NCBI GenBank assembly: GCA_013377005.1
Contig: JACABE010000005.1
Span: forward strand, 62,001-126,000
DNA from: Bacteroidota bacterium
GTDB lineage: Bacteria; Bacteroidota; Bacteroidia; Bacteroidales; JACABE01
DNA: 64,000 bases
Direction: 5' to 3'
Part shown: piece after piece, positions 55,676-61,654 of the stretch
Layout of the letters: the number at the start of each line of letters is the position of its first letter
How positions within the stretch are numbered: the stretch's first letter is position 1
Translations under genes and position numbers: made by a program
Notes under the pieces: model-generated
Seen by the model: the letters and a program-made list of their open reading frames with translations, nothing else
Told to the model about the DNA's origin: nothing
The model's database searches: none

Positions 55676-56482
55676 TTATTTATTCAACAATAACTTAGAT
55701 TTAATTTTTTTATCCTTGCTTTGTAAGATCACAAAATAAACACCATTTGCCAACTTGCTTAAATCAATAGTTTTAATTCCCTTACTTGGTTCGCTTAGTT
55801 GTTCGTCATAAACAATTTCACCAATAGAATTTTCAACTTTAATAGCACTAGCATCTTTATATTGTATTTTTATAATTCCATCAATTGAAGGATTTGGGAA
55901 TATATTTATTTCTGAATTATCGGTGATATTTTCAACAGAAGTTGTGCTTGGCACCCAATCAAGTGTAATACCACTAAAGTTTGTTGGTCCTGTAGGTGTC
56001 TGATGGTCTGCATTAGCTCCTTTTGTGAAAGAGAAATTAGTAATAATCCAGTGTTGGTTAGCTGCAGGCTCAGGAGTGCAGTAGGAGCTTTCTACAAATA
56101 CATTATATACTCCATCAGGAACTAAAACACCGCTTGTATTTGTTCCATCCCATGTAATTGTTTTTGCTCCAAAAGCAGTAGGGGATGTGCTTGCCGTTCT
56201 GGTTGCACCTGTATTAGCATCTGTAAGGTTTTGTGCTGATTTAGCTTTCCAACTGGGTAAATGATCGGTAGTACTGCTTCCCCAATAGCGCATTTTTGTT
56301 TTAATAAAACTTCCTGTACTACTTTCAATCCAAACAGCCATAACATTTTTAGTGGCAGAACTTGTTGGAGCAGTTTGTGTGTAAGTAAACGTTAAGGTTC
56401 CGTTAGTTTGAGCCTTTACATTATCTGATAATCCAATAATTATCAAAATAATAAAAACAACTGTAAATAAAAGCTTTTTCAT
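55676..56482 (-). CDS. DUF2271 protein with T9SS tail and FMN-attachment-like motif
   Basis: This 268-residue protein has a signal peptide (FTVVFIILIIIGLSDNVKAQ) and a DUF2271 domain (about 26-180) with GTLTFTYTQTAPTSSATKN and NVMAVWIESSTGSFIKTKMR. At residues 88-94 it reads DANTGAT, which matches the D-x-x-[ST]-G-A-[ST] site that ApbE flavinylates; Thr94 would carry FMN. The C-terminus is a type A T9SS sorting domain (INIFPNPSIDGIIKIQYKDA, LANGVYFVILQSKDKKIKSK). It should be a surface or secreted flavoprotein. It is divergent from a longer paralogue at 56923-58485, and an apbE gene lies 2 kb away. The fold and T9SS tail are clear; flavinylation is inferred. Confidence 0.88.
   Translation of the reverse strand: MKKLLFTVVFIILIIIGLSDNVKAQTNGTLTFTYTQTAPTSSATKNVMAVWIESSTGSFIKTKMRYWGSSTTDHLPSWKAKSAQNLTDANTGATRTASTSPTAFGAKTITWDGTNTSGVLVPDGVYNVFVESSYCTPEPAANQHWIITNFSFTKGANADHQTPTGPTNFSGITLDWVPSTTSVENITDNSEINIFPNPSIDGIIKIQYKDASAIKVENSIGEIVYDEQLSEPSKGIKTIDLSKLANGVYFVILQSKDKKIKSKLLLNK
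56201..56221 (-). other. Predicted ApbE flavinylation site (DANTGAT)
   Basis: These bases encode residues 88-94 of the short DUF2271 protein. The pattern is D-x-x-T-G-A-T, with the last Thr as the presumed phosphoester-linked FMN acceptor. The paralogue has DATTGAT at the same aligned position. Confidence 0.65.
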
Positions 56483-56922
56483 TTTTGTACAATATTTAAA
56501 TTATAATATTGTAACAGCATTTATATATTTATGTTCGATTTTATTAATTGATTAACATTTTTTAACAACAAATAGTTTTTATATCTGGCTCTTTTTTGTG
56601 TTTCAACTCCTGAATTTTTTGCAAATTTCTTTGTATTGTGAATAGGAGCTTTTAAAGTTAACTTACTAATTATTTTAATTACCTAAAATTTGACTGATAG
56701 CTTTCTAAGATAGCGATTGAATATGTTTTTTGTTGAGTTGATATAGAAAACCAATAGATTAAATAATTGCTTGTATCATTCACACATAAGCCAAATTTGT
56801 CTATAGATTAATATAAATCAAATCAATGACATATATCAATTTTGGAAATTTTAACATACTACTTAAAAGATATATTCATATTTTTGCTTTAAATATCATA
56901 TAAATTTAAAATACAGTTTTTT
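56483..56922. other. 440 bp divergent intergenic region between DUF2271 paralogues
   Basis: No gene is seen. It contains the inverted repeat at 56488-56513 and a TATTTTTG -7-like element at 56879-56886 for the plus-strand gene, without a matching -33 box. The remainder is AT-rich with nothing recognisable. Confidence 0.6.
56488..56513. promoter_or_regulatory. 9 bp inverted repeat directly upstream of the short DUF2271 gene
   Basis: TACAATATT (56488-56496), 8 bp, then AATATTGTA (56505-56513). It begins 6 bp upstream of the ATG at 56482, so it covers the ribosome-binding region and could be an operator or a translation-blocking hairpin. Confidence 0.5.
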
Positions 56923-58485
56923 ATGAAAAACAAATTATTTTTTAGCTTTATTATCTTCTTTATTTTATTAATTACTGTTTCAAAATTTAACAGTATTCAG
57001 GCTCAAACAGCAGGAAAGTTAACTTTTACTTACACACAAGCAGTTTCTCCAGCTACTGCAACCCTAAATGTTATGGCTGTATGGATTGAAAGCAGCACTG
57101 GAACATTTATTAAAACCAAAATGCGATACTGGTCTTCAGGTACAAACGATCATTTACCCAGCTGGGTTTCTAAATCAGCACAAAATACAACAGATGCTAC
57201 CACGGGTGCAACCCTAAAAGCAAGTACAACTCCCACGGCTTTTGGATCAAAAACGATAACTTGGAATGGCACTAATACAAGTAGTGCGCTTGTTGCAGAT
57301 GGTAGTTATAATGTATGGGTTGAAAGTGCGATTGCTAATCCACAGCCTAGTGGTGGACAACATACTTTTATCACCAGTTTTTCTTTTACAAAAGGCTCTT
57401 CTGTTAGTCATTTAACACCGACTTCAAGCCTCTCCAATTTTACTGGTATTACATTAGATTGGGTACCAGCTACACCTATAACCATAACAACATCAGCTTT
57501 ATCTTCAAATACTGTTTGCGTTAATTCAACGGTAAATGTACCTTTTACCAAAGGAGCAACAGATACCATTTATAACAATAATGTATGGACTGCGCAATTA
57601 TCTGATGCTACAGGAAGTTTTGCAAGTCCTGTTAGTATAGGAACTCTTAGTGGAATAGCGGTAGGTACAATTACAGCAACCATACCTGCAGGAACTGTTG
57701 CAGGAAGTGGCTACAGAATTAGAGTAGTAGGCTCTCAACCTGCTTGTACAGGAACTGACAACGGAACTAATATTACTATTACAACCGCACCATCAGCTCC
57801 TAGTGTAGGAAATATTACACAAACTACCTGTACCGTTGCAACCGGAAGTGTTGTATTAAACGGATTACCTTCCACTGGAAGCTGGACGATTAATCCAGGT
57901 AACATATCTGGCTCAGGAATAACAACAACTCTTTCGGGTCTTACTATCGGAACTCATAATTATACTGTAACCAGTGGTTGTACTTCTGTGGCATCTGCTA
58001 ATGTTGTTATTAATCCTCAACCCATTCCAGTAACTCCTATCATAACATTATCTACAAATATTTTACATTCGGATGCAACTACCGGAAATCAATGGTATGA
58101 CCAAAACGGATTTATCAATGGAGCAACCAATCAAAACTATACTGCAACAGCCAACGGAAATTATTTTGTAATTGTAACTGTAAACGGTTGCAGTTCTGAT
58201 TCATCCAACATTATTCAATATTCTAATGTTGGTATAAAATCTGTTGAAAACAATAATTCATTCAACATTTATCCAAATCCGGTTTCTAATGAGTTGATCA
58301 TCGAAAGTGATGTAAATAATAATGGAATAGCTTTTGAAATATTGAATTCTATAGGTCAGGTTGTTTATAAAGGAAGGTTGTTGGATAAGACGGTGGTGCA
58401 AACGACAGGTTTTGCTCCCGGAATATATATATTAAAACTTGAGAACGGAAAATCTTTTGAGTTTAAGAAAATTATTAAAGAATAG
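56923..58485 (+). CDS. DUF2271 protein with Ig-like region, T9SS tail and FMN-attachment-like motif
   Basis: This 520-residue protein has a signal peptide (FSFIIFFILLITVSKFNSIQ) and a DUF2271 domain (about 28-190) closely similar to the divergent neighbour: NVMAVWIESSTGTFIKTKMR and QHTFITSFSFTKGSS. Residues 91-97 read DATTGAT, a candidate ApbE flavinylation site with Thr97 as acceptor. Thr/Ser/Gly-rich Ig-like repeats follow (about 195-420; TTAPSAPSVGNITQTTC, TSGCTSVASANVVINPQP). A type A T9SS sorting domain ends the protein (FNIYPNPVSNELIIESDVNN, APGIYILKLENGKSFEFKK). It is probably displayed on the cell surface, with the repeats as a stalk. It looks like an elongated paralogue of the 268-residue protein. 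Confidence 0.9.
   Translation: MKNKLFFSFIIFFILLITVSKFNSIQAQTAGKLTFTYTQAVSPATATLNVMAVWIESSTGTFIKTKMRYWSSGTNDHLPSWVSKSAQNTTDATTGATLKASTTPTAFGSKTITWNGTNTSSALVADGSYNVWVESAIANPQPSGGQHTFITSFSFTKGSSVSHLTPTSSLSNFTGITLDWVPATPITITTSALSSNTVCVNSTVNVPFTKGATDTIYNNNVWTAQLSDATGSFASPVSIGTLSGIAVGTITATIPAGTVAGSGYRIRVVGSQPACTGTDNGTNITITTAPSAPSVGNITQTTCTVATGSVVLNGLPSTGSWTINPGNISGSGITTTLSGLTIGTHNYTVTSGCTSVASANVVINPQPIPVTPIITLSTNILHSDATTGNQWYDQNGFINGATNQNYTATANGNYFVIVTVNGCSSDSSNIIQYSNVGIKSVENNNSFNIYPNPVSNELIIESDVNNNGIAFEILNSIGQVVYKGRLLDKTVVQTTGFAPGIYILKLENGKSFEFKKIIKE
57193..57213 (+). other. Predicted ApbE flavinylation site (DATTGAT)
   Basis: Encodes residues 91-97 of the longer DUF2271 protein, aligned with DANTGAT of the divergent paralogue. 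Both keep D, T, G, A and T although the bases in between differ. Confidence 0.65.
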
Positions 58486-58521
58486 TCAATATTTTATTAT
58501 TTATTTGATTGTTCGTTGAAG

Positions 58522-58564
58522 AATAAAGAAAAGAGACTGCATTTAGTAGTCTCTTTTCTTTATT
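58522..58564. terminator. Bidirectional terminator with 17 bp perfect stem
   Basis: AATAAAGAAAAGAGACT (58522-58538) pairs perfectly with AGTCTCTTTTCTTTATT (58548-58564) around a 9 nt loop. It lies between the convergent DUF2271 and apbE genes and has A-rich and T-rich flanks, so it can end both transcripts. Confidence 0.85.
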
Positions 58565-58572
58565 GGTAAAAT

Positions 58573-59577
58573 TTATTCCGCTTCTGTTACAATATCTTTT
58601 AACCCTTCAGATTCAAAAATTTTATAAACGCCACTTTCTTCAGCATAAATTAAATAGGCTGATAATTCTTTATGCGCTGCTAAAAATGCTATTGATTTTT
58701 CAAGTCCCATAACCATAAATGCAGTTGCATAAGCATCAGCGGTCATACAGTCGTCTGCCAATACAGTTGCACTTAATACATTATTATGAGCAGGGTAGCC
58801 TGTTTTTGGATTGATTTCATGAGAATAGCGGATACCGTTTTCAATATAAAATTTTCTATAGTTTCCTGATGTATTGAGGGCTTTATTTTCAATCTTTACA
58901 ATGGCTTTTAGCGGATTATCTCCTTCTGTATTATCAATGGGTTTTTCTATGCCCACTTTCCAATGATCTCCATTTGGTTTATGTCCTTTTGCATACACTT
59001 CACCTCCAATTTCTACTATATAATTTGCAATCTTCTTAGTGTTTAATAGTTTTGAAACAAGATCGACCGAATAACCCTGTGCCAATGCATTAAAATCAAG
59101 TTTTATTCTCTCATCTTTTTTAATAACTTTTCCGTCTTTTAAAGAAACCAATTGATAACCAACAAACTTCAATAGGCTGTCAACCATAGAACTATCCATT
59201 TTGGCTTTTTTCTTAAAACTAAATCCCCACCCGCTTACCAATGGTCCTACTGTGGCATCAAATGCACCTTCCGAAGCTTTTGATACCTCCATACATTTAT
59301 TAAAGCAAGTAATGAAATATTTATCTAGAACAACATTTTGATCATTTCTATTTACTTTTGAAATAATTGATATAGAATCATAAAGTGATACAGATTTATT
59401 AAAGTCTGCTAGAAGTGTATCAATTTCAGACTGAAAATTGCGGTTTTTCTTATCGTAATAAGTTATATGATAAGTGGTTCCCTGAGCAAATCCACTTATT
59501 TTTATGGGTTCAATCTGAGAATATAAACAAAATGTAGTTAAAAAAAATAAACTGAACAATGAGATAGATTTTTGCAT
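58573..59577 (-). CDS. apbE: FAD:protein FMN transferase
   Basis: This 334-residue enzyme moves FMN from FAD to a Thr or Ser of a target protein outside the cytoplasm. It has a signal peptide (ISLFSLFFLTTFCLYSQ). The ApbE core is ISGFAQGTTYHITYYDKKNR, FDATVGPLVSGWGFSFKKK, LDFNALAQGYSVDLVSKLL and YIVEIGGEVYAKGHKP. The FAD/Mg site near the C-terminus is EINPKTGYPAHNNVLSATVL and DDCMTADAYATAFMVMG. All key motifs are intact. It ends a minus-strand set with an unknown secreted protein (30 bp gap) and a T9SS cargo. The two DUF2271 proteins just beyond are its most likely targets in this window. Confidence 0.95.
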   Translation of the reverse strand: MQKSISLFSLFFLTTFCLYSQIEPIKISGFAQGTTYHITYYDKKNRNFQSEIDTLLADFNKSVSLYDSISIISKVNRNDQNVVLDKYFITCFNKCMEVSKASEGAFDATVGPLVSGWGFSFKKKAKMDSSMVDSLLKFVGYQLVSLKDGKVIKKDERIKLDFNALAQGYSVDLVSKLLNTKKIANYIVEIGGEVYAKGHKPNGDHWKVGIEKPIDNTEGDNPLKAIVKIENKALNTSGNYRKFYIENGIRYSHEINPKTGYPAHNNVLSATVLADDCMTADAYATAFMVMGLEKSIAFLAAHKELSAYLIYAEESGVYKIFESEGLKDIVTEAE

Positions 59578-59607
59578 AAGCTTGATTTAATATTATTTAA
59601 AAATAAA

Positions 59608-60438
59608 TTATTTGTATTTAAGTTTTGTAAAATCTTCAGCAGTAAAAGCATCAATATGTTTTTTATCTATTATATACTGATCGAAATAAAGTGGTTCACC
59701 GTTCTCAATATTTATTAATACTTTCCAGCAAATATTTCCTCTGATTTTGTTTCCGATTTTATGCAGGAAGACAATATTGGACTTTTTATATGCTATAGCA
59801 TCTTCTATTTCTTCTGTAGTTGCAAGTTTTACAATTCCTTGATAGTAATTTTTAATTTTTTCCTTAGTATCTATCTCTGCATCCACTTCAGTTTTTAGTA
59901 ACCAAATTTCTTTGTTTCCGATATAAGAATCAATGTTTTTAATAAGATTAATAAAGCTAGTGTTTGTATGATTCATATTATAACGAACAAAAAATTGCAT
60001 AAACTGAAGCATGCCTCCGATTTTGTATAAAAAATCATCTTTATCCTGATCTGAGTAACATATTGGAAATGAACCCAAATCAGGCATATCGTTTAAAGAT
60101 GCTACTTTCCTACCCAAAATAAGATTTAGAATATTGTATTGCATCATGCTTCCTTTGACTTCTAATGTGGCATCTGAAAGCAGTAGAAAAGAATAGTTTT
60201 TGTTGTGTTTTTTTATTTCGAATTCTTTGTCTGTTATAAATTCATAAGGAGTAATTGTCCATATTTGTTCAACAACTTTTCTGATAGTTTCGTTGTAGGA
60301 AGAAAGAAGTTTATTTTCAAGTACAACCAGCGTTTTTGTTTTTAAAAATGCTTTATAATCAGCTTCTTTTGCATAATTTGTTTGTCCTGAGAGTATGATT
60401 GAATATAAAAGGAAAAATATAATTGAAAAACTTCTCAT
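59608..60438 (-). CDS. Secreted protein of unknown function
   Basis: From the ATG at 60438 the protein has 276 residues and a signal peptide (RSFSIIFFLLYSIILSGQ). A start 75 bp further upstream overlaps the previous gene and would hide the signal, so it is rejected. The mature part is mixed alpha/beta with NYAKEADYKAFLKTKTLVVL near the start and VFLHKIGNKIRGNICWKVLI towards the end. I recognise no domain and no T9SS tail. It lies between a T9SS cargo gene (10 bp gap) and apbE (30 bp gap), so it is probably made with them. Confidence 0.8.
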   Translation of the reverse strand: MRSFSIIFFLLYSIILSGQTNYAKEADYKAFLKTKTLVVLENKLLSSYNETIRKVVEQIWTITPYEFITDKEFEIKKHNKNYSFLLLSDATLEVKGSMMQYNILNLILGRKVASLNDMPDLGSFPICYSDQDKDDFLYKIGGMLQFMQFFVRYNMNHTNTSFINLIKNIDSYIGNKEIWLLKTEVDAEIDTKEKIKNYYQGIVKLATTEEIEDAIAYKKSNIVFLHKIGNKIRGNICWKVLINIENGEPLYFDQYIIDKKHIDAFTAEDFTKLKYK

Positions 60439-60448
60439 TTTAGCTTCT

Positions 60449-61654
60449 TTATTTTTTAGCTGTTGTCTTGATAAATTTGGTCTTATATGTACTGTTTTCA
60501 AACTGTATTTCAAGAAAGTACATACCTTCAGATAGTTTACTGATATCTATTTTTCGCTGGCTTATTTGCTTATTGATACTCTTTACCAATTGATTCCCAT
60601 TGATAGCTGTAATTCGGATTTCTTTAACTGTTTCTTCGTAGGGGAGCATAATATTTATTTCACTCTCAGCCGGATTAGGATAAATAGTGACTGGATTTAA
60701 AATATCTTTTTGATGCGACAAGGCAACTATTCCTTCATTGAAATAAGCTGATTTATTGATATATGTGGGAACAGATACATCAGAGCTAGATGAAGAATTA
60801 TTGTAATAACTTACTTTAAAATTAGATGGGTTATATAAAAAAATGCTATTGCTAACAGCATCTGCACATAAAGTAAAAGGCATAGTATTGTTCTGGAAAT
60901 TAAAAAAAGTATCTGCAGCAACGTCGTAATAAGAAGGAAAATTCGACAGATATATTTTATTTCCTGCCAGTACTGGTTCAAAAGGAGTATCCACAAATTC
61001 CTTAAATAATTCCAGTTTGATTTGCTGCGTAGTTTTATCGAGGCTAAAGATTGAAAAACGTGGTGCTCCGGTTGCAATTTCTGCATCAATATATATATTA
61101 TTGCCTTTGTTTATAAGATATTGACCATAAGCCGGGAATGCAAAGTTTGAAAAAATTGTTTTGGTTGCAAGAGTATCTTGTAAATTTAAATCAATAATTT
61201 GAATAGAAGTATCAAAAAGCAAATAAGCTTTTCCCATATCAAGCAATATATCAACAGGCTGTGATTTTACTTTGTTTATATCCAAAGAAAAAATCAGATT
61301 CTTTGTAGTAAAATCATAGACTTCGAAATAGGGTGGTTGCGATCTGGTAACTGCAAGTTTATTATTATCATAAGCGAGCAGATAAGCATTGGAAGTATTG
61401 ATAGAATCGGTTTTACCAAGGGTATAAGTATCATAATAAAACACTTTATCGTTGGTAATTAAAACTTTGTTATTTGCGACTATAATATCATCAAGATCAA
61501 TTGTGTCGATAATATGATATTGATTTTGTGGATATTGTATATAACCTAAAGTATTGTCTGAAACAAACCCGGTATGTAAAAATAACTTACCTTGTGGTTG
61601 TCCAATAAAAATAAAAGGAAATAGAAATATGACTAAAATCCACAGACGTTTCAT
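60449..61654 (-). CDS. T9SS type A sorting-domain protein
   Basis: This 401-residue protein has a signal peptide (RLWILVIFLFPFIFIGQPQ). A beta-propeller-like region follows (about 20-310) with repeated short strands, such as LAYDNNKLAVTRSQPPYFEV and GKAYLLFDTSIQIIDLNLQD. The end is a type A T9SS sorting domain: VTIYPNPAESEINIMLPYEE, EIRITAINGNQLVKSINK and LSEGMYFLEIQFENSTYKTK. The propeller reading is from strand pattern only. It heads the set with the unknown secreted protein and apbE. A DAEIATGAP stretch resembles a flavinylation site but lacks the final Thr/Ser. Confidence 0.88.
   Translation of the reverse strand: MKRLWILVIFLFPFIFIGQPQGKLFLHTGFVSDNTLGYIQYPQNQYHIIDTIDLDDIIVANNKVLITNDKVFYYDTYTLGKTDSINTSNAYLLAYDNNKLAVTRSQPPYFEVYDFTTKNLIFSLDINKVKSQPVDILLDMGKAYLLFDTSIQIIDLNLQDTLATKTIFSNFAFPAYGQYLINKGNNIYIDAEIATGAPRFSIFSLDKTTQQIKLELFKEFVDTPFEPVLAGNKIYLSNFPSYYDVAADTFFNFQNNTMPFTLCADAVSNSIFLYNPSNFKVSYYNNSSSSSDVSVPTYINKSAYFNEGIVALSHQKDILNPVTIYPNPAESEINIMLPYEETVKEIRITAINGNQLVKSINKQISQRKIDISKLSEGMYFLEIQFENSTYKTKFIKTTAKK

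Follow-up and report, generated by a model that had tools for sequence, protein, structure and literature searches.

Predicted exported flavoproteins in the Bacteroidota: DUF2271 proteins with type IX secretion tails and a conserved ApbE-type site, paired with apbE

Covalent flavins that act outside the cell are known in few systems and, to our knowledge, few routes of extracellular electron transfer have been described in the Bacteroidota. The locus described here raises the question of whether such flavins could be carried by proteins of the type IX secretion system (T9SS). Within a 64,000-nucleotide stretch of DNA from a Bacteroidota bacterium (the window; contig JACABE010000005.1, positions 62,001 to 126,000), two genes for DUF2271 proteins with T9SS sorting tails lie beside apbE, the gene for an FAD:protein FMN transferase. 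Our analysis suggests that these two proteins, as well as a third paralogue encoded elsewhere in this genome, are probably exported flavoproteins that obtain FMN from ApbE and act as electron carriers at the cell surface or after release.

The genes of protein 1 (268 aa; 55676..56482, minus strand) and protein 2 (520 aa; 56923..58485, plus strand) are divergent and 440 bp apart. Protein 1 consists of a putative hydrophobic N-terminal signal, a DUF2271 domain and a T9SS type A tail at residues 194-266, and protein 2 of a putative signal, a DUF2271 domain, a low-confidence middle region (approximately residues 186-443) and a T9SS type A tail at residues 449-520. The DUF2271 scores of proteins 1 and 2 (PF10029; 30.8 and 28.7 bits) exceed the Pfam cut-off of 27.3 bits by little, and the curated cut-offs for the tail families are also passed (Por_Secre_tail PF18962, 42.6 and 38.2 bits; TIGR04183, 33 and 45.2 bits), so the description of both genes in a first-pass annotation, as DUF2271 joined to a T9SS tail, holds at every Pfam and NCBIfam threshold. 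The intact, secreted ApbE reported there near one of the two genes is likewise present: apbE (58573..59577, minus strand) has an N-terminal export signal, matches PF02424 with 278 bits (E 8e-83), is convergent with the protein 2 gene with 87 bp between them, and occurs as a single copy in the genome.

Between the convergent genes, at 58523-58563, a long inverted repeat (ATAAAGAAAAGAGACT, a 9-base loop, AGTCTCTTTTCTTTAT) was recognized by eye and looks like a two-way terminator; the hairpin scan, which covers loops of up to 8 bases, lists none at this position, and the promoter scan returned about as many sites as expected by chance. The gene upstream of apbE, in the same orientation, encodes a protein of approximately 300 aa with no Pfam match (59608-60513), and beyond it lies a gene for a 401-aa T9SS-tailed protein that has no flavinylation motif and stands outside the conserved pair (60449-61654). 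Membership of these two genes in the system is unsupported, the one having no family match and the other encoding a different T9SS-tailed protein, and the genes past apbE vary among relatives. No cytochrome, barrel or PepSY gene adjoins the window locus.

The predicted flavinylation sites are DANTGAT in protein 1 (residues 88-94, acceptor Thr94; 56201..56221, minus strand) and DATTGAT in protein 2 (residues 91-97, acceptor Thr97; 57193..57213, plus strand), exactly where they had first been placed (56221-56201 and 57193-57213). Among the window's 58 stop-to-stop frames of 100 aa or more, no other match to D-x-x-[ST]-G-A-[ST] occurs; this pattern arises in 0.3% and 0.5% of shuffles of proteins 1 and 2, respectively. 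The bare [ST]GA[ST] arises in 5% and 20% of the same shuffles and is not rare in these proteins, because they are rich in Thr, Ser, Gly and Ala; the strong evidence against chance is therefore conservation, and not the rarity of the motif. Conservation of the Thr in T9SS-tailed homologues, which the first-pass annotation had put forward as a check, is close to complete: among 84 aligned DUF2271 domains from 76 loci, our three counted, the acceptor is Thr in 83 and Ser in one, a column that rules out a chance motif. The complete [ST]GA[ST] is found in 76 of the 84; two of the eight domains that deviate from it adjoin apbE (TGST in L064 and AGAT in L072). The leading position of the motif is Asp in 53 domains, Gly in 23, Ser in seven and Asn in one. 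The conserved core of the family is [ST]-G-A-T, and the leading Asp is not part of it. The proposal of a D-x-x-T-G-A-T motif thus stands as regards the shared aligned site and the acceptor Thr, whereas the Asp is not required by the family.

A link between DUF2271 and ApbE gene clusters has been noted in comparative genomics, and the published evidence is stronger than that: DUF2271 is an experimentally shown ApbE substrate (eLife 2021, PMC8238504). In another DUF2271 protein, [ST]GA[ST] was established as the flavinylated site by mutation, and the Thr-to-Ala mutant loses flavinylation (PMC8238504), so this half of the proposal is already known. A profile-profile alignment places the TGAT of the T9SS-tailed proteins on the [ST]GA[ST] of canonical Bacteroidia DUF2271 (E 5e-7, 85 columns). 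In the AlphaFold2 model of protein 1 (mean pLDDT 90.5), Thr94 sits in a short loop with strands 90-92 and 95-96 on either side. Flavinylation of the window proteins is predicted from their homology to an experimentally examined substrate, from conservation and from the gene association.

The T9SS sorting domains assigned to the ends of both proteins are supported by fold as well as by family scores. The modelled tail of protein 1 matches the tails of T9SS substrates solved with the translocon (8glk_D, TMt 0.81; 8gl6_D, 0.74), the sole clear match in a fold search with this protein, and the model also contains a hydrophobic helix at residues 3-21, with an AQ-type signal end judged by eye. The model of protein 2 (mean pLDDT 55) is of low confidence, with an unreliable middle region, and was set aside. 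A search of PDB sequences with the DUF2271 domain gave no solved homologue; its second half alone was matched, by FlgD-like and C5a-peptidase proteins. Among 58 aligned members, TIGR04183 and PF18962 each match 54; the remaining four would be explained by three tailless sequences (L102-L104) and one window sequence trimmed before its tail. SprA, the T9SS machinery marker that was searched for, is present once in the genome (2682 bits), and together with the tails it underlies the prediction of export.

The association with apbE extends well beyond the window. A profile built from nine T9SS-tailed DUF2271 domains found 76 related loci in public genomes, labelled Bacteroidota almost throughout, and 47 of 58 relatives match PF10029 at E <= 0.01. 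Cultured carriers include Kaistella gelatinilytica, Flavobacterium paronense, F. gelidilacus and F. alvei. One locus labelled Polynucleobacter (Pseudomonadota; L085) clusters in the tree with Crocinitomicaceae and is probably a mis-binned contig. The co-occurrence with apbE suggested as a further check is found: apbE is present in 55 of the 76 loci and is the immediate convergent neighbour in 50, mostly 7-79 bp away, an arrangement like that of protein 2 and apbE, and ApbE is encoded in 47 of 48 carrier genomes, a set in which many are metagenome-assembled and closely related. FMN_bind is absent from 40 of these 48 genomes. In an even sample of 395 genomes of the class, ApbE occurs in all 12 strong carriers versus 210 of 395 genomes overall (53%; hypergeometric p 4e-4, relatedness ignored). 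Within one genus of this sample (g31), two genomes have both genes (G218 and G372) and one has neither (G019). ApbE has other uses in the group, since G059 and G133 (genera g27 and g32) possess it with the carrier gene absent.

Several variants of the gene pair were seen. In Flavobacterium alvei, apbE is flanked on its opposite side by a second DUF2271-T9SS gene, which is very divergent (L098:9935-12966). Long DUF2271-T9SS proteins of approximately 670-1255 aa (L036, L040, L041, L042, L053, L091 and L100) resemble the 520-aa window protein in having extra regions between domain and tail, and proteins of approximately 510 aa in L015, L016, L018, L021 and L023 look like ApbE-DUF2271 fusions, a form that has already been noted (PMC8238504).

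The genome itself (3.69 Mb assembly, 97% complete) contains three DUF2271 genes, each of which encodes a TGAT site as well as a T9SS tail. Preceding the third gene (contig C14, L113:17322-18212) are those for a fusion of ResB and CcsA, a protein like cytochrome c554 and a multiheme cytochrome of the NapC type, and this position in a c-type cytochrome operon is the best local support for a redox role; a PepSY_TM_like_2 gene lies upstream on the opposite strand, 7 kb off. The third copy belongs to a second clade, made up of Bacteroidales sequences, in which apbE is absent nearby. Another member of that clade (L102) neighbours a large membrane protein that by eye is ResB/CcsA-like; a 20-haem protein is encoded farther along. 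Family searches of the genome found no FMN_bind, NqrB/RnfD or DUF3570, which rules out service of ApbE to Nqr/Rnf or another known substrate and leaves the three DUF2271-T9SS proteins as the only recognizable ApbE substrates of this bacterium.

Our data are consistent with a model in which proteins 1 and 2 and the third paralogue would pass the inner membrane via Sec, and the neighbouring ApbE would then, in the periplasm, use FAD as donor to place FMN on the final Thr of [ST]GAT, Thr94 in protein 1 and Thr97 in protein 2. Once folded and flavinylated, the protein would be delivered by its C-terminal tail to the type IX translocon and become surface-attached or released. Its FMN could receive electrons from the quinol pool, directly or via c-type cytochromes, and hand them to an extracellular acceptor, for example ferric iron, or to a partner at the surface. 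Since flavinylation genes co-localize with iron transport genes (PMC8238504), iron reduction is a sensible first candidate. We infer that flavinylation occurs, that it precedes T9SS export and that the protein ends up at the surface, and, on the same footing, which partners would donate and accept the electrons and in which direction these would flow; electron transfer as such is predicted from gene neighbourhood.

Other readings of the same genes have to be weighed against this model. The proteins could be flavinylated by ApbE as we propose, with the flavin acting in the periplasm or outer membrane, for example in assimilatory iron reduction or in feeding a cytochrome lipoprotein; the tail would then mainly set location, and little redox work would be done outside the cell. 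Canonical DUF2271 proteins are indeed periplasmic and tied to PepSY and iron uptake (PMC8238504), the tailless L102-L104 belong to the second clade, and the third copy has its PepSY_TM_like_2 gene not far away. Retention of a curated T9SS tail in 54 of the 58 aligned members, and the likeness of its fold to solved T9SS cargo, nevertheless make this reading unlikely in our judgement. 

Two further explanations dispense with flavinylation of these proteins altogether. Given the likeness of the domain's second half to FlgD Ig-like domains, and since a bare [ST]GA[ST] is not rare in proteins of this composition, they might be structural or adhesive surface proteins in which TGAT is a conserved, unflavinylated turn and apbE is nearby for some other reason. 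We give this little credence, because the acceptor Thr is near-invariant, a convergent apbE is conserved and ApbE co-occurs with the carrier gene, and the genome lacks the other known ApbE substrates. It would also be conceivable that the window ApbE mainly splits FAD or serves an unrecognized substrate, with the DUF2271 genes as mere neighbours. Some ApbE homologues, of the Treponema Ftp type, hydrolyse FAD; chains of the FAD-hydrolysing type are among the weaker PDB matches, and ApbE occurs in about half of the class. The best matches, however, are transferases (6nxi is aligned over nearly the full length, E 2e-51), and the window ApbE retains the transferase motifs, RYSH with its His among them; the aligned 6nxj chain has Gly in place of this His. 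With a conserved ApbE target motif in the neighbouring protein and a pair kept across many genomes, this last explanation appears very improbable. Exported flavoproteins loaded by ApbE thus remain our preferred reading.

The neighbourhoods of the relatives suggest how electrons might reach such proteins. Among the 76 loci, a DUF5777 beta-barrel gene lies near the DUF2271 gene in 30 and YceI in 31; in 27 loci, DUF5777 and YceI are joined by a small protein that bears the haem motif CXXCH and mostly has a lipoprotein-like start. The label 'apbE and DUF5777' requires 12 changes on a quick tree, which shows a linkage distributed across the tree, although many of those loci are close relatives. In the genome studied here, DUF5777 occurs in two further electron-transfer clusters, with YceI or cytochromes, that lie on other contigs and are unlinked to DUF2271: one combines DUF5777 and YceI with OB-like and haem lipoproteins (contig C38, L114:6010-9139), and the other combines DUF5777 with cytochromes and a pair of very large multihaem proteins that have membrane parts (contig C1, L115:5875-13076). 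The contig C1 cluster adjoins a Crp/Fnr-type regulator. The idea that DUF5777 is, like DUF3570, a further flavinylated barrel was rejected, as none of the 30 neighbours contains [ST]GA[ST]. A tentative and rather doubtful extension of our model is that the DUF5777 barrel, a one-haem lipoprotein cytochrome and YceI form a conduit through the outer membrane that hands electrons to a flavinylated, T9SS-displayed DUF2271 protein, which would there replace or join outer-surface multihaem cytochromes. If true, the conduit would be an undescribed outer-membrane electron route of the Bacteroidota.

The window proteins share with known DUF2271 substrates, such as WP_053936890 of Amantichitinum ursilacus, the PF10029 domain, the [ST]GA[ST] position and a nearby apbE. 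Known substrates are periplasmic and mostly occur with PepSY, whereas the window proteins have a T9SS tail, a divergent domain of approximately 155 residues and a convergent apbE, and their relatives have DUF5777, YceI and cytochrome neighbours. PepSY-like flavinylation systems (PMC8238504) have DUF2271 and ApbE in common with the window, which unlike them has no PepSY gene; the one PepSY_TM_like_2 gene is that near the third copy. NqrC and RnfG (FMN_bind) are likewise ApbE substrates with this kind of target motif, but their domain is different and is missing from this genome, as is NqrB/RnfD. Like T9SS type A cargo (the NucA and RemA tails, 8glk and 8gl6), the proteins have a beta-sandwich tail and, putatively, a hydrophobic N-terminal signal, in a genome with SprA, but we found no such cargo described as covalently flavinylated in the open-licence literature. 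The resemblance to Mtr-type porin-cytochrome conduits and DUF3570 flavinylated barrels lies in 27 of the related loci, where genes for a barrel, a redox protein and a haem lipoprotein are neighbours; DUF5777 differs in having no [ST]GA[ST], the haem proteins are small, and the clusters of this genome are unlinked to DUF2271.

The combination of DUF2271 with a T9SS tail, which had looked new from the outset, is not mentioned in the open-licence literature searched. Nor did that literature yield a link of flavinylation or ApbE with T9SS cargo (the eLife supplementary tables may list T9SS-tailed members uncommented), any mention of DUF5777, or anything relevant on multiheme cytochromes with type IX secretion.

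Overall, a phylum-wide family that joins an ApbE-target domain to a T9SS tail would put covalent flavins on the surface of the Bacteroidota, and it offers a likely function for apbE in genomes without an FMN_bind partner. Cultured Flavobacterium and Kaistella contain this gene pair, whose simplicity suits it to asking whether the T9SS exports cofactor-loaded redox proteins.
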